The notes below the pieces were generated by a model. It saw nothing but the letters and a program-made list of their open reading frames with translations. It did no database searches and had not been told where the DNA came from. This document shows, one piece after another, positions 5,707 through 64,000 of a stretch of 64,000 bases of DNA (the stretch's first letter is position 1; the number at the start of each line of letters is the position of its first letter). The position numbers and the translations under genes were made by a program. This DNA comes from Rhynchopus sp. YZ270_cl-10 (Eukaryota > Euglenozoa > Diplonemea > Diplonemida > Diplonemidae), in contig OZ037903.1 of the NCBI GenBank assembly GCA_964035575.1, positions 893,001 to 957,000 of the forward strand, in the 5' to 3' direction.

Positions 5707-6589
5707 ATGGATCACTTAGAGGTGGGCATGCGGATGCTGAACACACAAGGAGACCAACCGCAGATGGAGGAGCTGGGGCAGCAGATGTCGTGTCTGCGTA
5801 TACGGTCGCGGCAGTCGTCGTTGGCTAGACCGCACGGTGCGGGGTCGACGAAGAAGCGGAGGAATACAGAACCCTCGCTTGCGGAGAAAACCATCTCAGG
5901 GCGCCTTCAACGCTACCAAGAGGAGCAGCAGACACGCCGCCACGACCCCACCACCCTCAACGGCCCGCTCTGCCCCTTCGAGGTCGACACCTCCCTCCCA
6001 CACCAGTTCAACAGCCTCCGTCTCCTCCTCGACACCTTCAGACGCCCTCCAGTACTCTTTCTGGACCCCCATCCGCCACCAATTAGGGTATGTAAGATTT
6101 CGGGGTGGAAATGGTTGATTTAAGAGGTAGAGAAGGATTTTGTACAGACTTTTTTTTCGAACTCCGGGGAAATGAAACCATCCTGAACAAATTTGTGGAA
6201 ACCTATGATGAACTGCAATGGTGATCAAAGGTGGCTGAGCATGAGAGGCTTAGGGTCATATTATAAAACTTTTCTTTTATTTTGTCTATTTGTGCTTTCA
6301 TCCGGAATGGCTGGCATCGTACAGTGGGTCAGTCGGAGGTGCCTGCATTAATAACTACAGTTTGTTTTTCAAGCTCTTTTATGTGCACATTGACAACTTC
6401 TCTTCCCTGCAGACAAACCTCGACTCGCTTGCGCAGTTGATTGACTACAAACCTCCCGCACGTTTGAAGCTCAAGCGGAAAGACAACTCTCCTGCCAGCA
6501 ACAACCTCCTAGAATGGGAGAAATCGCGTGAATTGCCCTTAGAGGTTCCCTGCAACAGTCCATTGGACGACCGCAGTTTGTTCGGCTGA
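5707..6589 (+). CDS. Hypothetical protein, two exons (5707-6087, 6413-6589)
   Basis: Exon 1 (5707-6087) reads MDHLEVGMRMLNTQ and ends at a GT donor (GTATGTAAG at 6088). Exon 2 (6413-6589) follows a CTGCAG acceptor and reads TNLDSLAQLIDYKPPARLKL to a stop. Both exons are in phase 0, so the splice keeps one frame and gives 185 residues; the competing frame in exon 1 does not match the phase of exon 2. The protein is basic and helical (EKTISGRLQRYQEEQQTRR) with no recognised domain. The 325-bp intron holds one copy each of hairpin modules A and D. The short frame ATGATTGTTGGATAA lies just upstream. Confidence 0.65.
6230..6280 (+). repeat. Hairpin module A, intronic copy
   Basis: CTGAGC-ATGAGAG-GCTTAG forms the inner stem with one G-T wobble. 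The outer arms are GGTGG and TCATA, followed by the pyrimidine tract ACTTTTCTTTT. It lies inside the intron 6088-6412, in the same orientation as the gene. Confidence 0.75.
6299..6350 (+). repeat. Hairpin module D, intronic copy
   Basis: ATGGCTGGCATCGTAC...GGAGGTGCCTGCATT closely matches copies at 45721-45765 and 51008-51050. Inner arms GGCA and TGCC pair, and outer ATG and CAT pair with a 2-nt 3' bulge. Confidence 0.75.
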
Positions 6590-7098
6590 AAAGGCGTCTT
6601 TTATGTACTCTTTTTTACTCATTTGACGTTGTGCCAAAAAAGCGAGGATAGAGGACAGACGTGGTCTGACGTCTGACGCAATGCTCCCTATATTGTTCAA
6701 TAGAGGTGTTGTGCACGCCCCGTGAGGGGTCCGTTCACGAGATCTTTTTTTGAAAACTGAAGTCCATAGGGTAGGGGGCAGAAAGCTAATTATTGTACCT
6801 ATCTTTTTCCATGCTTTCTGTTAATTAGAAAGTGTTTTTTTGTGAGGTGGATTCTGTTTCTTTTGTTATGGTTTGTTTTTTTTTTTTGTCTGACAGAGGT
6901 CAGGTTGCTCTGTCCACCGAAGTGCAACCGCTCTTAAAACCTTATATTTACCCCCCCCGAAAAAAAAAACAAAAATACCCTGCGTCCTGCATCAAATGGC
7001 ATTTTCCGAGATGGTGATGGGGGTGCATGGGGTTGTTCTTTTTTAGGTGACTAAACAACGGGAGGCTTGAGTGCAGCCCTTATATTTTATGATAAAGT
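6590..7098. other. Gene-free spacer
   Basis: No gene or recognised module is visible here. The interval is rich in T-runs and has short hairpins only. Confidence 0.5.
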
Positions 7099-8451
7099 TA
7101 TACATAGCGCTCTAATTAGACTCCAACTAGATAATTAGAGTCGGCAGTTAGAGTATAATTAGAGTCTTTAAAACTCTAACTGAACTCTAATACTCTAACT
7201 GGACTCTAATTAGACTCTAATTAGAGTCTTATAATAGGGTCAATAAGAGGGGCACATCAACCAATGCTATAGCCATAAACCCAGGGAGCATAGCCAGTGC
7301 AAGAAATTCGATTTTGTAATCCAGAACGTCTGTTTTCTGCTTGCAGAGGACTAGATACAAGAAAATATTGTTTGTTCCCCCAGAAAACCAGTGCACAATT
7401 CACACTGGTCTTGTTGCCTTTTTAGCACAGGAATTTTGGCCCAGGGCATGATCACTTGAAGCATGGCACTTTAGTGTGCATGGGGTAGGGTGTTGTTTGT
7501 TATGAATTCTCTTTGTTATAACATCTAAGTCAATCGCGGGTGGTGGTTTAGCGCGAGGCTTGGATCTCTCCTGGGTTCATAAGTAGTTATTTCTGCGGAT
7601 GAAATGAACGTATACTCATAGATTTCCCGTCGACACAACCTTTGATACTGGGATTATCCCCTTCGACCCCTTAGTGGTAGTTAAACTCGATTGACATTTA
7701 CATTCCTAGAGATGAAAGAACAAGACAACACTTCTGTACCCGCGCATCAAAATTGTGGAAAACTTTGCACCCCAAACACCCTCAACAACGCCCGCCAAAA
7801 GGCGCCCCTTGTTACTGGGAGTTGGTTCTCATGTTTGTTACCTGCACAGCAGGAATTCCTCTGAGTCCAACGCTGTTTGGCCTGTCTGCGGCATTGCACC
7901 CGAAGGTGCACGAAGAGTTTTTGCGGTGTCGCATTCCCTCATGTGTGGGTCACTCACACTTGAGGGCATGTGCCACTGCGGGTCCGGGTACCCATAGCTG
8001 AGAATAAGCCGGGTCCCGAGTCCCGGGTACTAGGTACAGTAGGACTTGGACTAGGCCCCCACCCTCCCGCGACCGGGTCCCCGACCCGCTTTCAGGCGGA
8101 CCCACAGCGCCTTCACATAGTTGTGTCCCAGTCCGGCTGAGAATAACCGGGTCCCGGGTCCCCAAGTCTTATTCTCAGCTATGTGGGCACCTGGACACCT
8201 GGGTCCTACAGAGGAACCTTAGGGGAACCGGTTCCTTAAGGCGTTTGCACCTACAAGAAGCCTGTTGTTTTACTCTAATTAGACTATAATTAGAGTGTAG
8301 TTAGAGTCTAATTATGCTCTAACTGCGCTCTAATTATAGTCTAATTGAAGAAAAGCGACTCTAATTATACTCTAACTGGACTCTAACTGACTTGACCCAA
8401 AATCCCAGACTCTAATTATACCCTAACACTCTAATTGGAGCGCTATGTATA
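7099..8451. mobile_element. Inverted-repeat element E5 with TSD TAAAGT
   Basis: This 1353-bp element has termini TATACATAGCGCTC(T/C)AATT in inverted orientation, flanked by TAAAGT at 7093-7098 and 8452-8457. Subterminal regions (7106-7235 and 8270-8440) are packed with degenerate, mutually complementary TCTAATTAGAGT units, so each arm could fold on itself and the two could pair. The middle (about 7250-7990) shows no protein gene. Element E6a (7996-8180) lies inside. There is no transposase, so it is probably a non-autonomous foldback element. Confidence 0.8.
7996..8180. repeat. Short inverted-repeat element E6a (AGCTGAGAATAAG termini)
   Basis: It begins AGCTGAGAATAAGCCGGGTC and ends CTTATTCTCAGCT. 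Internal blocks (CCAGTCCGGCTGAGAATAACC, broken here at 8128-8148) recur in E6b at 49629-49737, where the spacer is shorter. The GGGTCCC-rich centre is itself palindromic. Confidence 0.7.
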
Positions 8452-8465
8452 TAAAGTGGTGTAAA

Positions 8466-8500
8466 GATGGTGTGGTGCACGAGAGAGAGGCACATTCATC
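8466..8500 (+). repeat. Hairpin module G, copy 1
   Basis: GATGGTGTG-GTGC-ACGAGAGAGAG-GCAC-ATT-CATC: inner stem GTGC/GCAC, outer GATG/CATC, and a loop that extends ACGAGAG. It lies 8 bp beyond the right TSD of element E5. Confidence 0.65.
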
Positions 8501-8786
8501 ATTACATATTTGTTTTGCTCCCCGCTATGTGTGTGTGATTATTTCACTTTATGTGGCTGAACACAAAGAGGGGGGGACCCTCTGCTGATGAAGCTCAAAA
8601 AAAGGGTGCATTTCAAGTCAGACAGAGGTGGTTTTTCAGTCAAAGGGATGGGGATGGGGAGGGGGAAGGGAATCAAAAACCAGGTGTCTCAAGACTTCTG
8701 TGGTTTTGGGTATCCTTTTGCGGAATAGTCAGTGCCCTGCGTCCCAGAGGCATTTGCACTATCAACTTCACGTTCTACGTGATCAA

Positions 8787-8831
8787 GGTCGACGAAGCAC
8801 GAGAGGCTTCGGGTCATCTCATGAACTTCTC
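8787..8831 (+). repeat. Hairpin module A with compensated inner stem
   Basis: The inner stem is CGAAGC-ACGAGAG-GCTTCG instead of the usual CTAAGC/GCTTAG. One base pair changed on both sides, so pairing is kept. GGTCATC and a pyrimidine tract follow as in the other copies. Confidence 0.8.
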
Positions 8832-8956
8832 TTTTTTTGATAACGAAAGGGTGAGGGGTTAAGTCCAACCTTTCTCTTTTGATGTGATTTTTTGGCGGGG
8901 GGTGCTGATCATCAAGGCAAAGCAGACCTGGTTCAGAATCAGTACTTTAAAGATAA

Positions 8957-9008
8957 GGTGACTAAGCACGAGAGGCTTAGGATTATCTTATAAACCTTTC
9001 TTTTTTTG
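8957..9008 (+). repeat. Hairpin module A copy
   Basis: GGTGA-CTAAGC-ACGAGAG-GCTTAG-GATTATC, then TTATAAACCTTTCTTTTTTT. The inner stem is perfect. Confidence 0.85.
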
Positions 9009-9246
9009 GGATAGTATTTAACTTAGCCAGAGATAGGTTGATTTGACAAGCGAGTTGTTACACACTCATTATCAGATGCCGAATTTCCATGGCCGCCGTC
9101 CTGTCTAGATAGGGGAAAAAATGGGGGAAAAGGAAAACACAACAGCAGAACATCGATATTCTGCCATTGTGTTTACTGTGTTTACCTCCTCTCCTCTTTT
9201 TTGTTGTGTACGTGGTGCGCATTCATCTTCGTTTGTTCGTGGGCAA

Positions 9247-9285
9247 GGTGGCTAAGCAGGAGAGGCTAATGGGTCATCTTTTTGT
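9247..9285 (+). repeat. Hairpin module A copy, divergent
   Basis: GGTGGCTAAGCAGGAGAGGC followed by TAATGGGTCATC. The inner stem is partly retained. Confidence 0.65.
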
Positions 9286-9715
9286 CTGCCCTTTGGTAGT
9301 TTAAAAATCTGTTCATGTGTTATTTTGTTATCCGTCTCTGTGTCAGTCAGGCGCAGCTGGGTAGGTGGGTGGTGGGTGGGGTGGGTCAAAACATCACCAT
9401 GGCCCTCAGTACAGTCATGGTTTTGTGTCATGCGTTCTTTCCAAGGTTTGGTTTTACAAATGTTATTTTTTTTCTCTTTTTTATGCGGTTTTTGTCAATG
9501 CCTAATTTTTCAATTAACCGTTGTGGTTTTTGTGTTTCTTTGTGCAGTGTTTTTCGTAAATGAATGAAAAAAAAACACGGTTTTTTTTTTTAAAATCCCC
9601 TTTAACTCCCCATTCCCTGCGTCCGCAAAGGACGGTTCAGACTCCTTTTAAAAAGCTTTCAAAAAAATAGTGATAATTGCTTTGTCTTGACAGAACATTT
9701 ATCTCTTTTTTTTAA

Positions 9716-9771
9716 GGTGGCTAAGCACGAGAGGCTTAGGGTCATCTTATAAACTTTTCTTTTTTTTTTTC
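9716..9771 (+). repeat. Hairpin module A copy, consensus-like
   Basis: GGTGG-CTAAGC-ACGAGAG-GCTTAG-GG-TCATC, then TTATAAACTTTTCT and a long T-run. Confidence 0.85.
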
Positions 9772-10029
9772 TTTATTGCAAAGATCCCTCTCAGACTTCA
9801 TCTGTTGTATTTGTTCAAAGTATTCTTGTAGCTTTTCATTCATCTGATTGAGAGGAAGCGGCACATTGGCTTGTCGCATCTCGGTGCTTCGTTGTAAGGA
9901 TTGCCGAAAGGGAAAGCGTGAACATTCCGCTACCTGAATGCAGAGAATGAGTGGCAACACATTGGCTATCCTGTTGACCATTTCCACTGGCCCCGGATGA
10001 CGTAGTCGTCTCTTTTTGAAAGGCGCGCT

Positions 10030-10125
10030 GACCCTTGAAAATGGAGGTAAAAACCGCATGGTTGGATGTCCACCCAACGGTGCGCCCGGTTGGTATACTG
10101 TTCACGAGATGGCTTTTTTTACTGC
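10030..10125 (+). repeat. Composite hairpin modules C and B
   Basis: Module C (GCATGGTTGGATGTCCACCC..., containing the complementary pair GGaTG/CACCC) is followed by module B (GGTATACTGTTCACGAGATGG) and a T-run. The same C-then-B order occurs at 10811-10920 and 44278-44382. Confidence 0.65.
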
Positions 10126-10385
10126 ATCTATTGAGTAGAAATGCACCCTACTACAAAAAAGGCAATGAATAACCTATTGTGCCCCCATTCGTAGTAGTTT
10201 TTTTGTGTGCTTTTTGCAAAAAAAAAAAAAGATGACTATTTTTATCTGATGTCGTTTTTTTGACTGAGACATAATTTGCAAAAAAAACTTCTCCTCAAAC
10301 ACTAATTCCGTTTTAACGCCCAATTCTTGGGTCTGTGTCTCTTGACACAAGAGAACACCATCCCCCTACGAGAGCACCCTTTTTA

Positions 10386-10433
10386 GGTGACTACGCACGA
10401 GAGGCTTAGGGTCATCGTACAAACTTTTTTTTT
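10386..10433 (+). repeat. Hairpin module A copy
   Basis: GGTGA-CTACGC-ACGAGAG-GCTTAG-GG-TCATC with one stem mismatch, followed by a pyrimidine tract. Confidence 0.8.
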
Positions 10434-10810
10434 GTCTTGCCTTTTTTTTTCCAACGATGCGTCCCCCTCGTGAGGCCGATTCATCTATCTATTGTACTAT
10501 CTGTTTAAGACGTGTCTACCTGAAAACCACAAACACGAGGTTGGTATTGTCACCTTGCTTGTCATTGCGGTACTCTCTTAGGGCGTCATCTTTTCCCCCA
10601 ACTTTCAAGTTTTTTTTTTTGTGGTTTCATCCGGGGCTGGGTCAGTCGGAGATCAACAACTACCATTTTATTATTCCTACGAAGCTTGCTTTAAAAAGGA
10701 GAAATAGTATTTACCGGGATACGGTCGGCCAAATCATCCCTCAAGGAGGATTTTGTGCAATCAACGAAAACAACTTTACCCTACCGATCCTACGATTTTA
10801 TTTTTTTTTC

Positions 10811-10920
10811 GAAATGGATTGTAGGATTTGCATGGTTGGGGTGTCCACCCTCCGGTACACCCGGTCATACCAAGGTACACTGTTCACGAGAGGGGCTTTT
10901 GTATTCCAACTCTACTTTTA
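10811..10920 (+). repeat. Composite hairpin modules C and B
   Basis: Module C (GCATGGTTGGGGTGTCCACC, then CTCCGG...CATACCAA) is joined to module B (GGTACACTGTTCACGAGAGG, then GGCTTTTGTATTCC) and a pyrimidine tract. Module F follows. Confidence 0.75.
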
Positions 10921-10932
10921 TTTTTCTGTGTA

Positions 10933-10972
10933 TCATACCTTCTATTCAGTAGAATAGTGAGTATATGAAACA
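10933..10972 (+). repeat. Module F, uninterrupted copy
   Basis: CTATTC-AGTA-GAATAG hairpin followed by TGAGTATATGAAA. It matches the site into which element E3 inserted at 3288 and so serves as a related empty site. Confidence 0.75.
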
Positions 10973-11404
10973 ATTTTTTTTTGTGGTCGTCCTTCGACAA
11001 TCCCCTCCCGCTGCTCCCCTCCCCTTATGGGAGAGGGTGTGTGATTTTTTTTTTGTGTTAAAGACATAGGTTTCGAACGCGCGTTCGCGTTTTTAGGGCG
11101 TTTTCGAGTGCGCGTTTGAAAAACGAAAAAAAAAAACGCGCGTTCGGAAAAAACGAGAAAAAAAACGCGCGTTTGAAAAAAACGGGAAAAAAACGCGCGT
11201 TTGAAAAACGAAAAAAAACGCGCGTTCGAAAAAAACGAGAAAAAAAACGCGCGTTTGAAAAACGAAAAAAAAAAAACGCACGTTCGAAAAAGTGGAAGCC
11301 TCATGTTTACGTGGGGAGGTTTTTCGAACGCGCGTCGAAAAAGTGGTTTTTTCGAACGCGCGTCCAGTTTTTCAAACGCGCGTTCGAAAAAAAAAAAAAA
11401 AAAA

Positions 11405-11441
11405 CAACGATTTCTAAAGCTACAGTTTCTGTACTTCATTG
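11405..11441 (+). other. Spliced-leader exon sequence fused to LINE 5' UTR
   Basis: The 37 nt begin CAACGATTT, contain AAAGCTACAGTTTCTGTAC and end TTCATTG. From memory this matches the diplonemid SL exon, and the ACAGTTTCTGTACT...ATTG core is shared with kinetoplastid SLs. What follows is ATTTCACAG, not a GT donor, so this is not an SL RNA gene. It is an SL already joined to a message, copied back into DNA with it. Confidence 0.85.
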
Positions 11442-11496
11442 ATTTCACAGATTTCACAAATTTTACACAAATTTTACACAACCTTAACGGATAAAC

Positions 11497-19763: not shown

Positions 19764-21862
<2,099 letters not shown>

Positions 21863-23477
21863 ACATAGAAAAAAAAATTGGGATTGTTCTGGGGTACCTT
21901 ACTGGGTTCGTTTTGGGGGGTGGGGGTGGTGGAGAAGTATTTTGCTTGATTCTCAATCTGCACCTTCTCATTGCAAAAAAAAAAAAATCTCTGAAGAACG
22001 CTATCTTGAGAGCAGTTTGCGAATTTTGTCTAAGGTGAAGGTGACCTTTTTGTATTTTTTTTTTGTTTTGTTTTTGAACTTTGACTGCACCGAGTTTTAT
22101 GTTTTTTTTTCTAACCCTCAACCTGGTGTTTTGTCAACGAACGGTTACAATGGCAAATCCCCTTTTTGTTATGCACCAACCGCACCTTTTATAGTCTGGG
22201 GGGAAGGATGGGGGGGGATGGAGGGAAACGGTGATTTGATTTTTGTATTTTCGGTAGCAGCTACACTGTTCCAAAAAAAAATTACTCCCCTCATCCCCCC
22301 TTCCAGACTTCCTCTCCCCTTCCCAGCCATTGCTTGCAAGAATGGGCTATTACATGTTATTGATGGAAAAAAACAGCAACAAAAAAGCAAAAAAATAGCA
22401 AAGCAAAATCTACAGTATATTTTTGAAAACGAAAAAAAAATGTACCTCTACTTTATGATGCATTTCATCTCTTTCAAATCCCTTTTTTTCTGACCACAAT
22501 TTTTTGTTTTGTGCTTTTTTAAAAGGTGGCGTAGTTTCGCATTGCTTGATCATCTTAACCACCTTTCTTTTAAAGGTGACTAAGCACGAGAGGCTTAGGG
22601 TCATCTTATAAACTTTTCTTTACATTTGTGTCGATCCCTCACCGTCTACTATCAATTTATTGATTGCATATGATGAAAATACTTTAAAAATATGTGAACG
22701 AGACATTTTTTTTTGAAGGTGAACAATGTGTATGCGCACAGGGATACACACTCATTCTTTCAACTTTTTTGGTTTTTTTTTTGGTGCTCTTTTCTGAACA
22801 CGCAAAAACCCCATCCCCCCCAAACCCTCGGCACTCTATGAACGTTTGCTTCGGAAGCGATAGTAAAAGGGTGTAAATAAAGAATGAAACCAAAAAAAAA
22901 CAAAGTATAGTGGAGCACACTCTAGGGTGGCTACAGTAATACAACCAAGTTTTCAAAAAACAAAACAAAACAAAAAAAAACCCCACTGAAAGAGCCGCCA
23001 TAAAGGGGTTCAGAGTATTCCCTTATCGTCTCAACTTGACGCACTCCTTATAAGGATGTGGTTATGCCATCTGCAGCCCCTTCCAAGCCTTTCAGTGCAT
23101 ATTTCTTTTAGATTGATTAAGCAGTGTCGTGAGGCTTTTACTCATCTAACAAACCTTTCTCTTTTTTCCCCCCCTTTTTGTGCACAAAAGCCCTTCGTCG
23201 TTTTGACATAGTGATGTTGTGGGTGATTTTTTTTTGTAGACTCTGCAAAAAAAAGGCAAAAAAAAAGAACAGGAGTTGTAGTGATAGGAGTGGGAACGCA
23301 AAAAAAAAGGATATTTTTATTGCAATGATAAAATACCGCTCTCATTTTTATCAAAAAAAAAATTGTCAAAAAGTGTTGTGAAACACATATTACAGACTTA
23401 CACTGACCTACCCTAATTCCACTTACACATCTTCTTTTTTTTTAATTGCTGAAAAGGTCCTGAAAAACGCCTGAATA
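21863..23477 (+). other. Gene-free spacer with hairpin module A copies
   Basis: There is a consensus-like module A copy at 22575-22625 (GGTGA-CTAAGC-ACGAGAG-GCTTAG-GG-TCATC, then TTATAAACTTTTC) and a divergent one at 23111-23167. Otherwise the interval is homopolymer-rich with no supportable gene. Confidence 0.6.
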
Positions 23478-24278
23478 ATGTCAAGAGGGACTGCACAAGA
23501 TGCGAACATGAACGCAGACATGCGCAAAGAGTTGATCGAAGATGCAAAGGACTTCGCACACGAGGTATGTGGGCCGTAATTCCTCTACCCCCCTTCGGAT
23601 ATTTCTGCCATTTTTTCCGGCAAAAAAAAAACATAAATCCAGAGCCCACAGAGACAGAGAAAAACAACCATTTCTCTTTTTTTACCACCTACCTTTCTCA
23701 CCCCTTCCCCCTGGACATTTCGCCGTGATTCACACTACAAACCCACTCCAAAACTCCCCTTCCACAATACTCACTCTGTCCACAGGCATTTGAAAACTGT
23801 CAAAAAGAGAAAGACGTTGCAACACAGATAAAACATCAGGTATTGCCATTGTATTTTTTTTGTTTGCACTTTCAACTTCTCTTTATTTTGGTTGGGGTCT
23901 ACCCACGATGCACCGTTTATTACACACTATCACGAGAGGGCTTCGCATTCCAAGTCAAAAAAATTATACCGTTCATCCTCCATTTTCATTCACTTAGACC
24001 ACCAAAAGCAAACACAGTAAGACAACAAGGATTTCAAAACTCTAACGAGGGTTTTTACCCCACCGATGTTGTTGTCTTACTGTAACAAAAAAGCTTTCAT
24101 TTAAATATCACCCATTTTTCCTTCACAGATGGAAAAAAAGCACCAAGGGGTCTGGCACTGCGTTGTAGGGAGGAACTTCGGGTCCTTTGTGACACACGAG
24201 ACAAAATCCTACCTATACTTCTATCACCACCAATGGGCCATCCTGCTCTGGAAGAGCATATCGACGTACGCAGACTAA
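23478..24278 (+). CDS. Dynein light chain LC8 (DYNLL-type), three exons
   Basis: Exons 23478-23564, 23786-23839 and 24129-24278 are each in phase 0 and bounded by GT-AG. They give 96 residues beginning MSRGTAQDANM. The C-terminal exon reads WHCVVGRNFGSFVTHETKSY and then LYFYHHQWAILLWKS, which is the signature LC8 fold. Human DYNLL1 (89 residues) has [20 protein letters not shown] at the same place. LC8 is a dimeric hub that binds dynein intermediate chains and many partners in the cytoplasm and axoneme. Intron 2 contains hairpin module B and a small inverted-repeat element. Confidence 0.95.
23919..23955 (+). repeat. Hairpin module B in LC8 intron 2
   Basis: TTACACACTATCACGAGAGG then GCTTCGCATTCCAAGTC. 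The ACGAGAG loop is retained, and the copy is in the same orientation as the host gene. Confidence 0.7.
24014..24083. repeat. Short inverted-repeat element E8a in LC8 intron 2
   Basis: Perfect 14-bp inverted termini (ACAGTAAGACAACA) enclose about 42 bp containing GGATTTCAAAACTCT, which recurs in E8b at 44753-44857. Confidence 0.7.
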
Positions 24279-29565: not shown

Positions 29566-31935
29566 GATTAGAGCGGAAACAGATCTACAGCACTCCTCGG
29601 GGTGTGGGGTGCGTTTATCGATCCTAAATTGCAAGTTAAAAAACTACCAAAAAACGAGATTTTTCTTTTGTTAAAAAACATGGAGTAAAGCGATTATACC
29701 TACGAAACGTCGGTTGCACTTCAGTGTGGACCCAACCGCCATATTGTTTTTTTTTTACCCGGATGTGGGCGTGTTCCCTAATGTTTTTTTTTTGTTTCTC
29801 TTTTGCGATTTTTTTTTTCTTGTCTTTTTTGCAATGCCTTGTCCTATCTCTTTTTTGTGTAGGTTTTCACTATTTTTTTTCTCTCTTTTTCGCGAGCTAT
29901 CTTGCCTATTGAAAGTGTGAACCAAGCAGGAGAGGGTGAGGATTATCTTAACTTTTCTCTTTTTTATGTTTCTTTCGGGAAACTTTTTGGGTATTGACAA
30001 TTTAGCATGGATTCTTTTTTTGGTGCATCCAAAATGGACACCAATCTCTTGCAAAAAAAGGTGAGCGAAGTCCATTAGGCTTCAGTCATCTTTTACTCAA
30101 CCGTTCTCTTTTTTTTTTGTGGGTTTACAACGTGTCTTCCTTTACCGAGGCTGTACGTTACTTCAAATTCACTTTTTTTCACTTTGTTTGTTTCCCCCCA
30201 AGAATTAGAAAGCTTTTGGTGACCTGACTGGTCACAAGAACATCGTTCACAGTGTTTTTTTCTCTAATGGCCCTGTATCATCCGAAGCCTTATAGGAGCG
30301 ATTGAAGAAAGACACTGCAGAACAATAAGGAAATTTCCCACGATTTAACATAGTATTGTGAGCAAAACCTGAGCGCGATGCGGAGGTTCATCTTACAACA
30401 ACAAAAAAACAACAACAAGAATTTTTCTCTCTCCGTTTTCCCCCCTTTGTCTCTCTGCGACTCTTGGGTGTGAGATGCCGTTATTTTTCTCTGTAAGCGT
30501 TCTCACCACTTTAGGGGCACTGTGGCAGTGGATTGTGTTTCATTTATTGCAAAAAAAAAGAAGAAGGAAAAAAAAAATTCATTCTATTCATTGGGCAGTG
30601 AAGACGACTATCTGATAGCTGTACTATTCCAGTGAATTATAATATAAAAAAAGCACATCGCTCACCTGTCTCAGCTTGTGCACACCATTTGCCATACCCT
30701 TTTCCCTTTTATGTCCCCCTTTTTTGAGAGTTTATTGCCAGACTTAATAGACGGTTGTGAGTGGTGATTGAATAAAACAAATTGAATAAAACAAAACCCA
30801 CCACCATCAACAATGAATTTTAAAATATTCGCACAAAAACCTGGTCTTTCCCTGCCCAATCCAGATCTTTCCCAAAAAAACAATTGAGTGTCTTATGTGT
30901 AGTGAAGACTGTCTGAATGGCAGCTGCACTAAACTAATAGATCGAAAGAAAATTATAGCCAAGAAACACGAGGTTTAAAAAGAAGCGAAATAATGACAAC
31001 ATTTGATTGGAAGAATTAAAACTTTCATAAAAGAAGCCTGTTTTTTTGCTGAAATTTATTTTTGTGTTTTCTTGCTCTTTTAACAACTGGATTGGGTTAT
31101 TTTTTGTTTCTATTTCATAAGGGGGGGTTTTTTCTCGAACCAGCACACCCCGCATTTTTTTTTTTTTTAAACTGCAACTATTCTTTGGTGACTGAGCTCA
31201 GAGAACAGCTTAGGTTCGTAATCGCCAAAACACCCCCCCGTTTTTTGCGAATGGTGCTGCGAAAAGGGTTATGGGGCTACACCTTTCATGTTTTTTTGAA
31301 AACTTGGTTTGTATTTATGTACTCTAGTACAATGCGTCTCTAAGTGTTGGATACTACCAACTTTCGTTCTTTGGTCCCCTTATCCCATTATTTGCGAAAA
31401 ACAAAGTGGAGATTGCACAACTGTAGCAACTACACTGTAATGAAACAAAAAAAGCAAACAAACAAACAAACAGAAAGCAACGCTGGCTACAAGAAACAGC
31501 ACCACGAATCGTTATATTTTTTTGTTTTGTTTGTTGTTACAAAACAAAAAAAACGCTCTAAACAGAAGTTGAGTTTGCATGACAACAAATATATGGGAAA
31601 TTTGCACAAGCTTCTCAAAAAAATGTTTTCAGGAAAAAAGAAAAAAGGACATTTTCCCCCGAACTAACAGATTGTATCTACACACTTCAACACTTTTTTT
31701 CCTTCAACCGCATCTTACCAAGAGGAAGCGGGAGTAGAGCATTTCAGACGTTAACCTCATAATGAATGAAAGGAGTCCACCCAAGCTACCCCTGTCATTG
31801 TACCAAAAAAGGTACACAGTCGCGAGAGGGTTTTGTATTACAAGGCAACCTTTTTTTTTCCCTTTCACCGATCACTATACTCCTTCCAGACGAAAAAAAA
31901 GGGGTATTTTTTACCCAAAAACACAAAAAAAAAAA
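29566..31935 (+). other. Gene-free spacer with degenerate hairpin modules
   Basis: No gene is supported. Module A-like copies lie at 29913-29963, 30060-30117 and 31185-31228 (all degenerate). A module B copy at 31811-31860 (GGTACACAGTCGCGAGAGGG then TTTTGTATTACAAGG) lies 75 bp upstream of the BBIP1 start. Runs of T and A are dense. Confidence 0.55.
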
Positions 31936-39659: not shown

Positions 39660-40706
39660 GCACAGAGCACTGTGTATGCTGTGTTAGTATGCGAGTGATG
39701 TCCACACAAACTCATTTACTTGAGTACTGAATCTCATGTTTGCATGTCAACAAACAACATGAGGAAAAAAATACATGCAACGCCCGCGAGGGCAGCATCA
39801 CCTTCTCTTTTCAATAACTTACAACAACTTTCCTTCTGTGTTCACAGACTTTTCTTCTTGTCTTTATTTCAAAGATGTGTGTACGTCAGTAAGGTACACT
39901 CATCGCTCAACCCTTCTTTGTGTGGTCTTTTCAAATGGTAACTCGTCCACGGTGGCGAACCAGTCACCTGCGACAGTGGTACTGTTTCACGTGCACACAC
40001 ACTCCGCTTTACTTTGCCCCCGATGCCTGTGTCTGCAGGGATGTTTGTCTTGCTCATATCCACCTTTTATGTGTTTCCAATCTTTTGCACAACCCAGTCC
40101 CGTGTATGCTGGATTGATTTGCTGCAAAGGATGCAATAGGCGTGGATACCGACCGGTATGGTCGTCTCTTCCGCAACAAGACACCTCTTCTTGTCGAAGA
40201 ACAAACAAAAACGAACACCACCACTCCCCCACTCCACCCACCTACCTACCACTCTTCTGTGCCTCTTCACTGTTGCTTCATAGCAAAGCATTATTATTAA
40301 CCAGCCTGTTTTGCGGCTTCGTCCGTTCTGTGCTGGTACGCATTAGTGCGAGAAGGCAGCATAGCGTGGTTTGCCAGCACCTCATGCACGGCACTCAGCA
40401 CTCCGCATGCTGCTCTGTTTCTTTACCCTCCATGCGTGCAGGCAGCCGTACTCTAGAACACGCTCTTCGCTTTGAACTCGTTCTCACATTCCGAGCAAAT
40501 TTGAGAGACACAGGGCACAAGATTCACCACACCTGTCCTACGAAACACCCATGCCCCCCACCCTTTGCATGAGCTCGACTGAGATGCGTTTTAGCACAAC
40601 TACTCTTTTCTTCTCTTGTCCCCACTCTCCACAACGTCACTGCCACCTACGCCACCTACACCACCACCAGAATTAAGACCACCCACCCACCTCCCCCACC
40701 ACCCCA
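39660..40706 (+). other. Gene-free spacer with an informative hairpin
   Basis: No gene is supported. At 39874-39904 lies GATG-T-GTGTAC-GTCAGTAAG-GTACAC-T-CATC, a member of the module A/G architecture with a different inner stem, followed by a pyrimidine tract (CAACCCTTCTTTG). The rest is C-rich spacer and a leader for the SGNH gene. Confidence 0.6.
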
Positions 40707-41456: not shown

Positions 41457-42616
41457 GTGTTTTTGGGGGATGTTACCCATCGATGCCCATTTTTATAGAG
41501 AGATTTTTTCTCTTATTTGCTCTAAATTGGGTGTAGATGGCATGTTGCCTTTATGCTTGCCCTTTAGAGGGTAAGTATTTCGCTTTCCGATTCTGTTTTT
41601 TTTTTTGTTTGTTTGGTTTCTTTTGAAGGTGAAGGCAGGCTTAGGTTCATCTTTACACTTTTTTGCTTTTATTTTTCGGTAAGATATGAGTGTCTGAGAG
41701 CGGCACTTGCATCTTACAAAATGTTTTATTTCGTGATGTGGCAACTCGTTGTGTGTGTGTAACCCAAGCGAATAGCGTGGGGGTGGTGAGCACACCTCAC
41801 ACCCCCCCACGGTACTCTCTCTACGAGGATACCGTCGTTTTTCTCGCTTTGTGGTGTAACAAATTAAAAGGGGAAAGTGCACGATGTGGCGGCACGATAG
41901 GCAACTACACTACTCCAACTTTTTAAAGGTGGCCGAGCATGACTTTATCTGCAGACCTTTTCATTGTCATTACGTCCCACTGCGAACCGTTATCGCAGTC
42001 AAGGAGGATGTCTAGACAAACTTCATGGGGAGGAGGGGTGGGTGTTCCCGCCCCCTCTGCGCTCTTTCCAAAAAGCAGAAAAAAAGGTCTTTCCTGCATG
42101 GTAGTTGCGCAGCATTATATAAGCACTACCTTTCAGATGTAAACCATGAAAATGGATGTAGGACTGTATGGTTAGGGTCCATTCACGGTGCACCCAGTCA
42201 TTCCCGTTTTGAAAACGTTGCAATATCCCCCCCTTTTGTTTAGATGACTAAGCGAGGCTTAGTCGCGAGGCTTATACTCATCTTATAAACTTTTCTCTTT
42301 TTATTCTTTGTTCTTATATCTTCGCAAATAGCGTTTAAACTTCAAAACCCCTCCAACCTCTCTTTTTGCACTCTTTCCCCCCTACTGGAGATTTGACATC
42401 ATTCCCGACAATGCATTATGCAATTCCAGACACAGTCAGATGCTGTAATATCAATTATGGTCAAGATGACTAAGGATGAGAGGCTTAGGTGCATCTCATA
42501 ATTTTCTCTGTTCTTTTCAAAGATGTGTGTATACGAGATTTCATTTTTTTGAAGTTTTCATTTTCCCAACAGATAAACCCATACCCCATCACAGTACACA
42601 CCCCCCTTTCTCACAA
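41457..42616 (+). other. Spacer with hairpin modules A, C and G
   Basis: Module A-like copies lie at 41628-41677, 42242-42304 (with the inner arm duplicated: CTAAGC-GAGGCTTAGTCGCGAG-GCTTA) and 42465-42519 (GATGACTAAGGATGAGAGGC). A module G-like hairpin lies at 41683-41715 (AGTG/CACT inner pair, TG bulge, CATC). Module C without B lies at 42135-42205 (GATGTAAACCATGAAAATGG, then TGTATGGTTAGGG). A likely SL acceptor is TTTTCCCAACAG at 42572. Confidence 0.65.
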
Positions 42617-45765: not shown

Positions 45766-45788
45766 AATAACCACCGTTTGTTTTTAAA

Positions 45789-45815
45789 GATGTGTGCACC
45801 AGAGGCACATTCATC
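45789..45815 (+). repeat. Hairpin module G, clear copy
   Basis: GATG-TGTGC-ACCAGAG-GCACA-TT-CATC, followed by AATACAACTTTCTTTTTTT. Same layout as module A with a wholly different inner stem. Confidence 0.8.
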
Positions 45816-46079
45816 AATACAACTTTCTTTTTTTGCTTTCGCTGCGCTAGGAAGTAAAAGTTTTCTCCCCAAACCAAAAGTACGAGCTTAGAACCTCGTC
45901 TCATTTGTGTCTTGCGTCTGCAGACAGGTGTTTGCATTTTCAAAAAGAATTTTTTTTTATGTGAAGAACGGGCGCATACGCTGCAATGTTTTCTGTTCTC
46001 CTGAATTGAAAGTATATGAATGTTCCAATTGATGCAACAAGAGAGACACTTCATCTTTCCGTGTTTTTTTTTTAGGTGA

Positions 46080-46199: not shown

Positions 46200-46306
46200 A
46201 CAAGGGGGTCTGTTGTGTTCTTCTCAGAACTTTTGGGTTTCCTGTTTTTTGAGGTCACTAAGGGGCTGCTAACCCGATGGTCTAAAAATCAAACAATTCA
46301 TTCAAA

Positions 46307-46415
46307 GTCGCTAAGCACGACAGGCTTGAGGTCATCTTGCAATTCTTCTTTGTGGTTTTCTGGTACACTGTCACGAGAGGGCTTTGTATTTCAAGTCAAC
46401 CCCCCCTTTTTTTTT
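46307..46415 (+). repeat. Adjacent hairpin modules A and B
   Basis: Module A (CTAAGC-ACGACAG-GCTTGAG, with a wobble pair) at 46307-46352 is followed by module B (GGTACACTGTCACGAGAGGG, then CTTTGTATTTCAAGTCAAC) at 46362-46415, about 260 bp upstream of the next gene. Confidence 0.75.
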
Positions 46416-48786: not shown

Positions 48787-48859
48787 GGAACTGGTCTCGT
48801 ATGTCCTATTCTTAGGGGACGTTTTCAGATTTTTTTTCTTCCAGTGCCCTGCGTCTGCC

Positions 48860-48883
48860 GATGAACGGTGAGGCGTTTGCATC
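48860..48883 (+). repeat. Hairpin module H
   Basis: GATG-AACG-GTGAGG-CGTT-TG-CATC: the same outer stem and 3' two-base bulge as modules A and G, with a different inner stem and loop. TTCAAACTGCTCTTTG follows. Confidence 0.75.
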
Positions 48884-49628
48884 TTCAAACTGCTCTTTGT
48901 TTTAGCGAAATGGTGTGGAGAATTTTTGGGGGGGGGTTTTTTTTTGCTCATCTTCACCAGAGTTTCGAAGGAAAACAAATCTTTGTGCAGAAACTCTGGT
49001 CTTCACACCATTTTCTTTTTAGGGACTGCACGGTTCGGATCCATCATATGTCGTGGTCTCGTACTGAGGCACGTTGTCTCGAGAGGTCTTTGCATTTTGA
49101 GTCAATTTTTTTTCTGGCTATTTTTCAAGTCTGTTTTGGGAAACGAATCTAGAATTGACACTTGAAAGGAAATGAAGGAACTTACAATAGTTTTTTTTTA
49201 GTTCAAAAGAAAGAAAAGAAATGTGGACCACATCCTTGGGTGTCTCCACGAATCCAAACCAAGTTTTCAACGAAGCGTGCTGACATCAGCAACCCTCCCA
49301 AATCATCATTTTCGGCAAACATAAAACCAGAGAAAAAACAGAGAGAACCAACTATTTTTTTCCCCTTCCAAATTCTAGATATAGTGTGCACGAGACGGCA
49401 CCTGCATCTTTTGTTTCTTCTTCTCTCTGTTTTTCAAAAAAAAAAAAAAACATAAAAACGTTACTGGGGGGTCAGATGCAAGACCCCCCCTAATTAGTAG
49501 ACCCCCTGAGAATTTTTTGACCCCCTATTTTGGGGTAAAAAAAAAGCGAAAATAAGGAACAGCCCTGGTCCGTTCGCTGAATACTGGACCCGGGTCTAGT
49601 ATTCTTGTCGCCCTCCCCCTCCTCCCCC

Positions 49629-49737: not shown

Positions 49738-50760
49738 AAGTAACCAAATACCACTTCATCTTCTCTTGTATCCAACCCGCTCTTTCTCCCTTCCTTCCCC
49801 TGTTTTTTTTGCAGGGATTCGCTCAAAAAAGAAAACAGACCTTTCTTTTCACAAAGAAATGGGTACGGTGAAAAGGGGCTTTGTTATTTTACGAAACCTC
49901 TGCTTTTTATTTGGTTCCTTATGGGCTATGCGTGCCTACATCCAGTTGAGGGTTTTTGTACTGCCAAAGCACGTATGCGTCACAATATGTGGGATGTACC
50001 AATGTTGAGAACTGCTAAAAAAAACTTTATTTTTTGGTCCAGATTTTCCCAACTACTATGTCCTGACGTATTTACAGCACTTGAAGTTTGAAGGATTCAA
50101 AGGGCGGGGGAGGGGGGTAATTAAGAAGTGCTGTTGACACCAATGTAGGGCAATAAGCTCACTATCATACGGTATAGCTGGGTTGAGGCAAACCCCCAAC
50201 CAAGGCAAGCCCAATAGGGCCAGCTATGTTAGCACTGTTTTTCCCAAGAAGGGAGAAAAATTTAAGTTTTGGTTCTGTTTCTTTTCTTCGTTGTCTTTCT
50301 CGAGTATTATTCTGTTTTTTTGACGTATTACTCGTGTGCACAATAGCGCATTTTGGGTTTTTCTCTCTTTTCTCTCTTTTCGTCTTTTTTGTTTATCCAA
50401 GCGAGAAGCCGTCCTCATCATTCTCCATAGCGTCTTTTACAGAGTTGCGGAGTGGTGTGTGCGTATCTTCGTCTCTTACGGAATGCACGTTAGTCGCTCA
50501 GTGTTCTGTCTCCAAGGGATGTGTTCATTTTTCTGGCTTTTTTTTGGTAATTGAGCAATCAGCGAAAAAAAAAACCCCCCTTCCTTTGAGCAACGGGGTT
50601 CGATAACCCGCGGAGTATCAGTGTCTGCGTCCCTGCGTTTGCACTAATCAACTTCACTTTTTTTTATGTTCCTTTTATTATTTCTTCTTTTTCTTTTGCC
50701 ATTGCCATTTAGCCTTTTGGGGGGGAGGGAATTTGTTTTTTTAAACAGAGCATTTGTTAA

Positions 50761-50811
50761 GGTGACTAAGCACGAGAGGCGTAGGGTCATCTAAAAAAGC
50801 TGTTCTCTTTG
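50761..50811 (+). repeat. Hairpin module A copy
   Basis: GGTGA-CTAAGC-ACGAGAG-GCGTAG-GG-TCATC with one stem mismatch, then a pyrimidine tract. Confidence 0.8.
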
Positions 50812-51130: not shown

Positions 51131-51557
51131 TAAAGGTGGCTGAACCCTCTTAAAAGTTCAGAGTTATTTCACCAAACGGTTGAACGGTGAATCGTTTGCA
51201 CTTTCAACTTCTCTTTTTTTTATTCCCTTTTTATACGAACCTATCAGGAAGGTTTCATGAGGTAACAAACTTCTTTTTTTGTTTACATTGAAAGGCCATT
51301 TGTTTCCCCTCTGGACATTCTTAACCTCCTGATTTTTTTCTTTTCTTCCTCTGTTTTATATTTTGACGGACAAAAAAACCCTTCTTTTCCCACGAACGGC
51401 TCTTGTGAAATAAACCTCCTTCCCCTTCCCCCTCCTTTTTTTTTTTTCCTTTTTGGAAATTCCTCAAAACTCTCATTCCTTCTCCTTCTCTTCCTCTTCC
51501 TTTTTTTCCACCCCCTTTTCCATTTCCTTTTTTAGCGGTTGGGTTTTACACGAAAAA

Positions 51558-57383: not shown

Positions 57384-57595
57384 ACCAATCTTCACCAATC
57401 TTCACAAGTTTTCACAAGTTTTCACAACATAATTTTTGGCCATTTTTTTGTGAAGAATTGTGAAGAGTTGTGAATAGTTGTGAATAGTTGTGAAGAGTTG
57501 TGAATTGAAATGAAAATTTGGATGAAAAAAACACAGATGTTGTGAAGATTTGTGAAGAGTTGTGAACAGTTGTGAAGAGTTGTGAATTGGAGGGA
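57384..57595. repeat. Subterminal TTCACAA/TTGTGAA inverted array of E2 (left)
   Basis: TTCACCAATC and TTCACAAGTT units run to about 57430, then the complementary TTGTGAAGAG and TTGTGAATAG units to 57595, so this end alone can form a long hairpin. Confidence 0.8.
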
Positions 57596-58170
57596 AAAAA
57601 AGGGGGGTGTTTTTTTCCAGGGTTTTTGCAGGACTGGTCAGGTAAAGTGTGCTGTGCAGAGGGCTAGCTAGCGTGGGTCTGTGAGTCAAGCTGGCCGTAC
57701 CACCCCACCCCCTGTGCGGAGGAGGACGACGGAAGTCCGCGGCGTGTTCGTTTGTTGCCTTTTTTTTTTTCAACATGTTCACAACTCTCAAGAAAGTAGC
57801 GTACCGTGCGCCTGCGACGCAGCTAAAAATTACTAGCGGTAGCCCACAGCTCTACCCAAAATGTTGCGTACCGTGGCTTCGCTAGAAAAGTTTTGTACCA
57901 GTGGCACTACCACTTGTTTCCCTGTTTTTTGTACCGTTTTACTCAAAACACAGCTGGGCGCAACTAGCACCATACTCACCTGAACTGTGCCTATATTAGG
58001 CACAATTTCAGCACACTTTCAGCACAAGTACACACACGTACACGTCGGGGCCATATTCTGAGCAAGAATTACCCCCACTAGTTATCAAACACACGTACAC
58101 ACAATTAACCACAATTACACCTAAGTTGCTCTGGGGGAAAAAATGGTACACCACCCGACAGGACTACTGC

Positions 58171-60885: not shown

Positions 60886-61118
60886 ACCACTGCACGGGGA
60901 TCCCAAAAATGCAATCCAAGTCAAAAAGTTGAAAAAAAAACACACCTAAAAACACGTGGCCCAAGAATGGCCCAAAAGGGTCCAAATCGTCCCGTCAGCC
61001 GCACCATTTTAGGCACTTTTTGCACATAGAACCTCCTGTGTTGCCAACCAACGTCCTCCAAAAGGTGTCCTGTACCTACCTGGGTACCTGGGTGCCCAGG
61101 CACCACCCAGACTTCGCC

Positions 61119-61304
61119 AACTTCACAACTCTTCACAACTCTTCACAACTCTTCACAACTCTTCACAACTCTTCACAACTCTTCACAACTCTTCACAACT
61201 TTTCACAACTCTTCACAACTCTTCACATACACGTTTTTGTGAAAATTTGTGAAGAGTTGTGAATAGTTGTGAATAGTTGTGAAGAGTTGTGAAGAGTTGT
61301 GAAT
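61119..61304. repeat. Subterminal TTCACAACTC array and its inverse, E2 (right)
   Basis: About eleven 10-bp units (61119-61228) are followed by inverted GTTGTGAAGA units (61240-61304), mirroring the left end. Confidence 0.85.
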
Positions 61305-61346
61305 TGAAATGAAAATTTGTATTTTTCGATACCCCGGAACACACCA

Positions 61347-62044: not shown

Positions 62045-63304
62045 ATGGACCCACACCCCCCTGCTAAGGGACCCCCTGTTGGTGCAGCACCACCGCCCCT
62101 AGGTGGTTATGACGAGGGGGTAACTGTGAAGGGGGCTGGTGGGGTGCCACCCCCTGCACGAAGCTTTGGTATGAAACAGCCGCCTACACGGACCGCCACG
62201 AACTTCCCTGTAAAGTACTACGATGGAACCTACAAGCCTGTTGTGGTGGCTCCAGTTGCTTCTGTTACACAGACACATACTCCGATTATTCCTACCACTT
62301 CTCCTACCACGGGACCAGCTATTGTCAATGTGAAGGTACCTGCTGGATCAAAAAGAGTAATGGAAAGCGAAAAACGGGTTATCGAAAAGGCGTATATGCC
62401 GACCCCGGTTAATATAGAAGAAGATGATTTTCCTCCTAGAGGGGGGGCTTCTATTCCTCCGTCGGGGTCGCAGGCGACGTCACCTCGGTTTCTTTCTAAT
62501 CGTACTACGGTGCCTCCAAGGTCTCCTCAACAGGGGTCAACTCGAACGGAGGAGTTATTAGATTTGAATACATTTGGTGCTTCGCAAAGTCCATCCCATT
62601 CTGCATCTCGCCGCTCCGCAGTAAACACTGTAGGGACCTATCAAGAAAGAGAAGATGAATTTCTCCGAAGCGGATCCCTCTACCGCGACCCTTCTGGACG
62701 ACGTTCCCAAACCAGACAGTCCACTTCACAGTCACCGAGGATGAGTGGAGGCGGGAGGTTCGATTCTTATGACAGAGCACCGGAAGATCGAATTCCTGAA
62801 GAACGTTATGGTTACGGGGACGATTTGATACACCCATTTGGGAGAGGGGACTGCGTGGTGAGGGGGTCCTTTGTCATAGAAGGATGCAATTTTGCGAGGT
62901 TTGAAGCAAGCTCGAAACGGCCCGATGAGAGGAGAATGTTTACAACAGCTATCCGTGATGATATGGTGGCATGTGTAGGGCAAGGGGTACGGAGACATGA
63001 CATAATGTTGCGTGCAGCGCCCGGTCCGATTCGTGGTGTCGTGTTAGAGTACGATGGTAGGCGAGAAATGAGTCCCTCTCTAGTAGACGCCGACTGGGGT
63101 ATAGAATTCGAATATGCCATCAGAGTCCGAAGTGAAGCAACGCAAAAGAATGTAGGTCTCTCCCTCTACACTGCCCTAACAGACGCGAATGGGCTGGATC
63201 TTCAAGAAAGCCGCCACGCGTGGGTCCGCTTTATCGACCAAAGGGCAAATCCTGCGGATATCTACACATTGACGACACATGATGCACGGAGTCAGGCTCA
63301 ATAA
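62045..63304 (+). CDS. Hypothetical protein, Pro-rich N-terminus and compact C-terminal domain
   Basis: This single exon encodes 419 residues. The first 270 are low complexity (Pro, Ser, Arg; MDPHPPAKGPPVGAAPPPLG), probably disordered. Residues about 275-350 form a compact alpha/beta unit (CVVRGSFVIEGCNFARFEAS, FTTAIRDDMVACVGQGVRRH, DIMLRAAPGPIRGVVLEY). Its strand-helix-strand pattern with an acidic-hydrophobic helix resembles SEA-like or related ferredoxin-like repeats seen in many protist surface and flagellar proteins, but this is a resemblance by eye. A second strand-rich segment follows (WGIEFEYAIRVRSEAT). Function unknown. Confidence 0.7.
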   Translation: MDPHPPAKGPPVGAAPPPLGGYDEGVTVKGAGGVPPPARSFGMKQPPTRTATNFPVKYYDGTYKPVVVAPVASVTQTHTPIIPTTSPTTGPAIVNVKVPAGSKRVMESEKRVIEKAYMPTPVNIEEDDFPPRGGASIPPSGSQATSPRFLSNRTTVPPRSPQQGSTRTEELLDLNTFGASQSPSHSASRRSAVNTVGTYQEREDEFLRSGSLYRDPSGRRSQTRQSTSQSPRMSGGGRFDSYDRAPEDRIPEERYGYGDDLIHPFGRGDCVVRGSFVIEGCNFARFEASSKRPDERRMFTTAIRDDMVACVGQGVRRHDIMLRAAPGPIRGVVLEYDGRREMSPSLVDADWGIEFEYAIRVRSEATQKNVGLSLYTALTDANGLDLQESRHAWVRFIDQRANPADIYTLTTHDARSQAQ

Positions 63305-64000
63305 AAAAGGGTCAGTGACTTTTTGTTGTACAAATTGTGCAACAATAATATCAAAAGAATTGTTTTTTTGGGTTGAGGGAGATTAATCAAGGCGTTTTAT
63401 AAAAGGTACACTGTCACGAGAGGGCTTTGTATTTCAAGTCAACTTTTTTTTTTGATCATCCGCCGTGTGGAAAAGGTGTCAAGGTATTTTTTTGAAAGGG
63501 CCGGGGTGAGTTAGAAGTGTTCACTAACGGGTGACTACGGTTCGTGTTGCCCCTCTCTCTCAAGGTGGCTAAGCACAAAAGGCCTCGGTTCATCTTAATA
63601 AACTTTCTCTTATTATAGCAGGTGTGTTTTTTTAGGAGGGGATGTCAGATGTAAACCGCGAAATGGATTTTTGTTTTGTTTTTGTATCTCTTTTGAGAAA
63701 TGATGCGATCGATTCAGAAAAAAAGCTACCACAAAAAAACATATGCAAAACCCCCTCCCAGAAAGTCAGTGGTTATTATTCTTTTCTCCATACCCCGCTA
63801 GACGCTTGGGAGGTGTATTTGCGTTTTCTTCTTCTACTGTTTTTCTTGCTTTTTCGAAGCCAATCAATTTTTGGGTCCCACACATGTTGCCCCATTGTTA
63901 ACGGCGACAAAAAGCACCCAGAGGGGCTTATATTGGGGCCATCTATGAACGGGGTGAGATTTTTTTTGTTTTTTTACCAGTTCTCAGTAGCATTTCACAA
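63305..64000 (+). other. Spacer with modules B, A and C
   Basis: Module B lies at 63405-63453 (GGTACACTGTCACGAGAGGG, then CTTTGTATTTCAAGTCAAC), degenerate module A at 63564-63616 and a truncated module C at about 63647-63672 (GATGTAAACCGCGAAATGGA). No gene is visible. Confidence 0.6.

Follow-up and report, generated by a model that had tools for sequence, protein, structure and literature searches.

Dispersed hairpins in a diplonemid nuclear genome: probable 3′ ends of a LINE clade whose copies lie almost always in gene sense

We examined a 64,000-nt stretch of DNA from the diplonemid Rhynchopus sp. YZ270_cl-10 (contig OZ037903.1, positions 893,001 to 957,000, forward strand; hereafter the window, meaning the whole stretch), which is part of an assembly of 152,426,579 bases in 126 contigs. 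The window carries many copies of short hairpins, sorted here into modules A, B, G, H, P and Y and a family Q. We conclude that the modules are very probably the 3′-terminal stem-loops of one clade of long interspersed nuclear elements (LINEs, non-long-terminal-repeat retrotransposons) in the nuclear genome. Module P is module D of a first-pass annotation of the window, and module Y is a sister of its module H. Copies in the window include the following (window positions, strand in parentheses).

6228..6277 (+) module A, old, its 5′ end lengthened by gapped matching; inside an intron by our by-eye reading
6313..6369 (+) module P, in the same intron as the preceding copy (by-eye reading)
8463..8516 (+) module G
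8723..8776 (+) module Y, found at the 3′ terminus of sister LINEs F2-F4
8786..8834 (+) module A, with one pair changed on both sides (CGAAGC/GCTTCG); fold no better than shuffles
8954..9003 (+) module A
9245..9280 (+) module A, degenerate
9713..9762 (+) module A, beginning at the hairpin base
10385..10432 (+) module A
10872..10919 (+) module B, with a long form extending back to 10829
20386..20431 (+) module A
22573..22621 (+) module A, beginning at the hairpin base; between genes (by-eye reading)
22905..22955 (+) family Q, found at the 3′ terminus of sister LINE F5; tail A-rich
23114..23161 (+) module A-like, weak (E 0.0015)
23924..23958 (+) module B, in an intron of a dynein-light-chain-like gene (by-eye reading)
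29921..29960 (+) module A, degenerate
39867..39919 (+) module G with an enlarged loop, placed at 39874 by the first-pass annotation
41637..41662 (+) 3′ fragment of module A, weak (E 0.0097)
42242..42297 (+) module A-like, with an internal duplication
42463..42507 (+) module A, old, its 5′ end lengthened by gapped matching at about 73% identity
45728..45785 (+) module P, immediately upstream of the next copy
45780..45833 (+) module G, a module that resembles A
46305..46349 (+) module A, with a module B copy close downstream
46362..46401 (+) module B
48848..48902 (+) module H, a module that resembles Y
50610..50662 (+) module Y
50758..50806 (+) module A
51181..51221 (+) module H
63403..63447 (+) module B
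63562..63607 (+) module A, degenerate

Copies were counted with nhmmer profiles of the six short families (A, B, G, H, P and Y) at a cut-off of E ≤ 0.05, with reversed sequence as a control. The window gave 16 matches for A, 11 for B, nine for G, six for H, five for P and four for Y, all on the plus strand, and the control gave none for any of the six. The non-overlapping copies number 44 (16 A, 11 B, 5 P, 5 G, 5 H and 2 Y), some of them weak. Recurrent hairpins are thus present at the places named before, and the previous estimate of about 20 A or A-like and about 10 B copies was close. We also searched a 264-kb sample made of the window and 20 further 10-kb stretches, 17 of them with the exact module A core. 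Here the profiles matched 63 times for A, 49 for G, 29 for B, 24 for H, 22 for Y and 15 for P, against none in the control, and 162 copies, including the 44 of the window, were left once overlapping matches had been removed. Genome-wide matching with up to three mismatches found 3452 + 3444 places for A (6 + 11 for the reversed pattern), 731 + 706 for Y, 546 + 598 for B and 511 + 489 for G, with none for the reversed patterns of the last three. The dispersed copies are real and occur throughout the genome. A search of the window against Rfam at the gathering score gave no match, and one at E ≤ 2 over 8400-11000 gave two microRNA matches at chance level only. Readings of the hairpins as an Rfam family or as ribozyme-like were dropped for want of a credible match.

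The source of module A was found through its flanks. In BLAST comparisons A copies share a 3′ end and vary in 5′ extent, and the longest common part led to a locus, L049, with a second open reading frame (ORF2) of 1454 amino acids (aa) that matches Pfam RVT_1 (E 5e-24) and Exo_endo_phos (E 2e-13), that is, an APE-type endonuclease and a reverse transcriptase (RT). The module A hairpin starts about 10 nt past its stop codon, and an open reading frame (ORF) of 347 aa without a Pfam match lies upstream. The best solved structures for this ORF2 are LINE-1 ORF2 proteins and then R2. Among the matches listed, those relatives that bear a species name come from Diplonema papillatum, with identities of about 42-52%. 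A search with a 481-aa part of ORF2 gave 89 scored matches, of which 27 are full-span at 97-100% identity, 18 of these sitting in an open frame of 1462 aa. The same search yielded sister groups F2 (50% identity, 18 places), F3 (49%, 11 places), F4 (49-50%, eight places), F5 (44-45%, eight places) and F6 (35%, four places).

One 3′ end was read per group, and each of these autonomous elements ends in a stem-loop. That of F1, the L049 LINE, is module A. Module Y directly follows the ORF2 stop in F2, F3 and F4 (L050, L051 and L052), the F5 element runs from the ORF2 stop through the predicted Q hairpin into poly(A), and in F6 the stop is again followed by a predicted hairpin. The tail after the hairpin is U-rich in A and Y and A-rich in F5. 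Family Q is itself dispersed over the window and the other loci (17 hits, none in the reversed control); the F6 hairpin, compared by BLAST with the window and with L029-L049, matched nothing there. The account may be extended to G, which is like A in sequence, and to H, which is like Y, and possibly also to B and P. The first-pass annotation knew of no described element of this kind. The hairpins are not an undescribed free-standing element, as those of A, Y, Q and F6 are LINE termini just past an ORF2 stop and the dispersed copies appear mostly to be 5′-truncated insertions. It had also held that the idea would fail if the copies proved to be parts of longer unrelated repeats; longer repeats do exist, but those found are related. 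A LINE lies within the window itself (11497-16208) and was rejected as the source, its identity to the L049 ORF2 being about 20% over about 400 residues; none of the six module profiles matched in the region around it (11400-16720).

Three further observations concern these elements. At L055 the sequence just past the 3′ end of the F6 LINE resembles, by eye, the repeat-rich genes of L041, so by this by-eye reading the F6 copy sits within or next to one of the genes of that family. On the minus strand of L052, at about 180-390 of the reverse complement, one G-like and two A-like copies stand behind the F4 tail (by eye), head to tail and all sense, with pyrimidine tracts between them, apparently because insertions were nested in older tails. 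Module B also occurs in a longer form (window 10829-10923 and 44296-44380; L047, L044 and L040) with a conserved upstream part, GCATGGTTGGGGTGTCCACCC...GGTCAT, whose parent element was not found.

Truncation was measured on 42 module A copies at E ≤ 1e-7 by ungapped 5′ extension. From their common 3′ end the copies extend 0 to 1125 nt 5′ of the GTGAC motif, but 30 of the 42 reach at most 6 nt, 22 of them exactly 3-4 nt, and the remaining 12 reach 10 to 1125 nt. At least two of the 30 (6228 and 42463) become longer in gapped matching at about 73% identity, which makes the count of short copies slightly too high. In the fold of the L049 copy the outer stem begins at AUAAGG, and the 5′ boundary of the short copies is therefore the hairpin base. 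Genome-wide, AAGG plus the hairpin has 1038 exact matches, against 325 at up to one mismatch for a pattern 10 nt longer, which suggests a proportion of short A copies of roughly two thirds or more. Family Q behaves similarly, with 12 of its 17 copies beginning at TATAGTG, the Q hairpin base, and with no F5 sequence seen by eye in the 15 nt upstream of the 17. Judged from these alignments, the dispersed copies would be mostly 5′-truncated LINE insertions that start near the hairpin base. T content beside A insertions is 0.50 at −12 to −7 and 0.65 at +1 to +6, and within some 20 nt it has dropped to about 0.3 (background 0.26). Module A thus targets short tracts rich in T. Most Q copies are found in A-rich tracts.

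Modules A and G share a common plan, with RTG...TCATC flanks, mostly a CACGAGAGG loop, and inner stems that differ. When 12 A and G sequences were aligned, 95.6% of 114 cells were paired, compared with 28.9-53.9% for slid-pairing controls, and five pairs (14 cells) showed changes on both sides, where shuffles gave 5.4 and none of 500 reached 14; the sequences form two groups, so few independent events are counted. The earlier claim that separate families keep one hairpin plan while their stems change and stay paired thus holds for A and G, and its view that the fold is selected or copied was right. The copy at 8787 does have one pair changed on both sides (columns 11/28). Paired change among module A copies in general did not survive: 42 copies (39 distinct) hold three double-changed cells, which 43 of 500 shuffles reach, a result that is not significant, and 89.7% of pairs are kept versus 89.1% with shuffled partners. 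Nor did the proposed GATG-CATC pairing of module H, which is present in one of the nine listed copies, the other eight having GCAC, GTAC or GCGC there. Since A and G stems differ yet pair and covariation within A is not significant, the fold is kept in active LINE lineages while individual copies decay. The compensatory changes that separate families fit a LINE RNA selected to be recognised by the RT it encodes, as is known for stringent-type LINEs. Folding energies are strongest for the L049 module A (−15.7 kcal/mol, z −4.6, none of 200 shuffles as good) and the F6 hairpin (z −4.1, 0/200), followed by the G copy at 39874 (z −3.05, 1/200) and the F5 Q hairpin (z −2.9, 2/200); the F4 Y hairpin gave z −2.1 with a tested stretch that begins inside the hairpin. 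The lowest-energy fold of the 8787 copy is not the hairpin (z +0.10, 100/200).

The copies lie in gene sense. In the 264-kb sample 161 of 162 are sense, the sole exception being a weak match (E 0.035), and at E ≤ 1e-5 the count is 108 of 108. Apart from that match, each of the 21 stretches has all its copies on one strand. For 19 of the 20 stretches that were fetched, this is also the strand of the longest ORF once low-complexity ORFs are left out. The remaining stretch, L037, has no ORF of 200 aa or more; at L041 one of the ORFs shown is the LINE's own. We also compared strands across families, using the first 100 listed places each of A, Y, B and G (hits that are not independent), and the nearest hit of another family agreed in 133 of 133 cases within 50 kb. 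The LINE bodies behave in the same way. A short copy lies 8-200 kb from 34 of 88 clade ORF2 places, and all 34 agree in strand, as do all 16 places bracketed on both sides. Among other RT elements 48 of 114 places could be tested, and 28 agree while 20 disagree (15 and 9 when bracketed); the difference from the clade has a Fisher P of 3e-6 (0.006 for bracketed places). Outside the copies the gene strand has 1.3 to 2.1-fold more pyrimidine than purine tracts and 1.2 to 1.5-fold more T runs than A runs. This asymmetry was considered as the cause of the orientation and rejected, a 1.2 to 2.1-fold skew being far too small for 161 of 162.

Along contigs C1-C53 the element strand at the listed places runs minus then plus on 25 of the 31 contigs with at least four hits; three contigs are single-strand, and C1, C2 and C4 switch more often. 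It looks as though transcription of most contigs diverged from a single internal switch and ran outward along both arms.

We propose that the ORF2 protein would recognise the 3′ hairpin of its own RNA, and that its endonuclease would nick short tracts matching the tail, T-rich in the case of A. Reverse transcription would start at the tail, which would pair with the nicked strand; the enzyme, held on the hairpin, would stop just past it, or else the template RNA would already be trimmed to the hairpin. Most insertions would then stop close to the hairpin's 5′ base, giving copies of about 50 nt, with a minority extending into ORF2 and a few at full length; dead copies would decay, and stem changes between families would arise in those LINE lineages that are active, where there is pressure to preserve the fold. 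The LINE anchoring of A and Y, the hairpin 3′ ends of F5 and F6, the common 3′ end, the 5′ truncation, the T-rich flanks of A, the decay and the orientation are observed. Their orientation might come from coupling of insertion to transcription, the nicked primer strand being the template strand of the gene; as a cause of the sense bias this is tentative, and we hold it at somewhat less than an even chance. Nicking could be confined to the template by, for example, nascent U-tract RNA paired to a template A-tract, or could take place on a stalled polymerase. We put forward with equal caution the joint reading that the clade nicks only the template strand of polycistronic clusters, copies mostly a protected 3′ hairpin, and so seeds at least ten thousand sense hairpins, most about 50 nt, across the non-coding RNA of this protist; as part of it, virtually all insertions of the U-tailed families might be sense under such nicking.

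Several results weigh against this account. Of the dispersed modules, G, H, B and P are none of them anchored to an ORF. Folds no better than shuffles were obtained for the two H copies tested (z −0.37 and −0.65), a P copy (+0.87), a B copy (−0.68) and some of three further G copies (−1.29, −1.35 and +0.90), and the Y hairpin is weakly better than shuffles in F2 (z −1.3; −1.34) and moderately so in F3 (z −2.2; −2.22). Target-site duplications are short, uncertain candidates seen by eye at a few of 10 junctions, and T-rich targets hide them. Ordinary LINE insertion has no strict regard to gene direction, so the sense bias is itself unexpected. Agreement between families is lower at distance (189 of 190 within 100 kb, 239 of 245 within 200 kb), and we read the mismatched pairs as straddling strand switches; the Y place C1:1325963 (+) is inside an otherwise minus run with no other family within 200 kb. 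Family Q has 15 sense and two antisense copies. These are the short copies of F5, which belongs to the clade set, so the orientation bias is strictest in the U-tailed families.

The copies of about 50 nt could instead be an independent, tiny non-autonomous element, a hairpin plus tail of the kind of a very small short interspersed nuclear element (SINE), copied in trans by the LINE enzyme. The sharp 5′ boundary (22 of 42 A copies at 3-4 nt beyond GTGAC, 30 at ≤ 6 nt), the 1038 exact short matches against 325 longer ones, and the 12 of 17 Q copies that begin at the hairpin base with no F5 sequence seen by eye just upstream would all fit such an element. An identical boundary would result from an RT that stops at the hairpin base or from RNA trimmed to the hairpin. 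The longer copies are graded from 10 to 1125 nt, and at least two of the 30 short ones, 6228 and 42463, prove longer once gaps are allowed. Hairpin-only copies of A and Q do exist, and a separate SINE body or source gene was not identified for them; no promoter or source gene was seen, though without a systematic search. We consider this rather unlikely. Much less likely again is that the copies are individually functional as host RNA elements, such as processing or stability signals, under selection; sense-only orientation, presumably transcribed non-coding DNA and a conserved loop would suit it, but pairing within A hardly exceeds that of shuffled partners, double changes are without clear excess, and copies decay, gain insertions and lose arms. 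Introns or introner-like elements would explain the orientation, as reverse splicing predicts sense-only copies, and module A reads AAG-GTGACT...TTATAAAC-TTTTCTTT, with an AAG|GT 5′ end, an AAC branch-like site and a pyrimidine tract. We nevertheless give this idea almost no credence: G has AAAGATG without GT, and the window introns that were read begin with GTATG or GTATT. It was dropped on the by-eye gene structures, in which the few copies checked lie in longer introns or between genes and never at exon junctions, and on the ORF2 coding sequence 5′ of the hairpin in longer copies.

For orientation the main rival to transcription-coupled insertion is selection, in which antisense copies would insert equally often, harm the processing of polycistronic RNA and be lost. 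Leishmania SIDER elements offer a milder parallel, their sense excess of about 4-fold being tied in passages of PMC2689281 to placement in the 3′ untranslated region, and the clade copies here are located in introns and between genes. But the 100 exact, hence young, A copies listed for C1-C5 are already in long strand blocks, other RT elements on the same contigs stand in both orientations (28 concordant, 20 discordant), and a 50-nt antisense insertion between genes would seem to have no obvious cost. We regard selection as unlikely, with transcription-coupled insertion kept as the tentative explanation.

The nearest known relatives in form are stringent-type LINEs (UnaL2, ZfL2-1 and ZfL2-2), which likewise end in a 3′-terminal stem-loop followed by a short tail. 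Passages of PMC4176376 report that each ZfL2 LINE requires its own stem-loop for retrotransposition, that ZfL2-1 keeps about half its activity when the stem is swapped and the loop retained, and that the ZfL2-2 protein binds its RNA via the loop. This behaviour fits the conserved loop and variable stems seen here, where binding is predicted by analogy. New in comparison with stringent-type LINEs are the U-rich tail (A and Y, with an A-rich tail in Q), hairpin-only copies as the main product, most A copies ending near the hairpin base, and a near-absolute sense orientation that tracks gene direction. Trypanosomatid SIDER, ingi and L1Tc are also truncated LINE-related retroposons; in this related group they are scattered over directional gene clusters and show a sense excess (about 4-fold for Leishmania SIDER in the PMC2689281 passages, ‘most’ copies in those of PMC2424063). 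Their shared signature is a 77-79-nt 5′ element, whereas the present clade is marked by a 3′ hairpin. Human L1 also has a bias tied to transcription and produced at insertion, which excerpts of PMC5717806 attribute to transcription-coupled repair acting against sense copies, the opposite sign to the almost all-sense pattern here. Introners and nonconventional introns of Euglenozoa that are like miniature inverted-repeat transposable elements (MITEs) (PMC12621601) are similarly short, structured, dispersed and within genes. Unlike them, our copies are not introns where examined, and the longer ones enter LINE coding sequence. Among the top-ranked papers of our open-licence literature searches, none described such hairpins or reported a diplonemid LINE clade confined to sense orientation.

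The almost exclusive sense orientation is the strongest anomaly in these data, and it was absent from the first-pass annotation. With 161 of 162 sampled copies and 34 of 34 testable bodies in sense versus 28 of 48 for other RT elements, transcription-coupled target-primed reverse transcription becomes directly testable. The families offer a natural series of 3′ hairpins, with related loops, different stems and U- or A-rich tails, for the study of LINE RNA recognition, and they illustrate that retrotransposition debris can yield dispersed RNA hairpins that mimic a regulatory element. The copies can also be used as a marker of gene-cluster direction on contigs.

Some host features were noted as well. 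There are tandem arrays of a spliced-leader-like RNA gene, with a leader, which we take to be diplonemid-like, that ends in CTACAGTTTCTGTACTTCATTG and is followed by GTATGG; a U6-like gene lies close to the arrays (by-eye reading). Introns of the window, read by eye, start with GTATG or GTATT and end with AG, and a GTATG intron start is given for three Diplonemidae species in passages of PMC12621601. Together with the species-named ORF2 relatives, these features point to a diplonemid host. A spliced-leader-like sequence at 11404-11441 lies just upstream of the ORFs of the unrelated LINE (RVT_1) at 11497-16208, which suggests that trans-spliced LINE RNA was copied back together with its leader. 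An intron of the dynein-light-chain-like gene holds an inverted repeat, CAGTAAGACAACA ... TGTTGTCTTACTG, at 24009-24090 that is MITE-like by eye. At 7080-8430 clusters of a palindromic ACTCTAATTAGAGT-type repeat flank a GC-rich stretch on both sides (by eye). Arrays of 10-nt units, of TTGTGAAGAG and CTTCACAACT types, occupy 57360-57625 and 61101-61342, about 3.7 kb apart and with both orientations in each, and tandem repeats with 14-nt and 10-nt units form long arrays from 35389 and from 58045.

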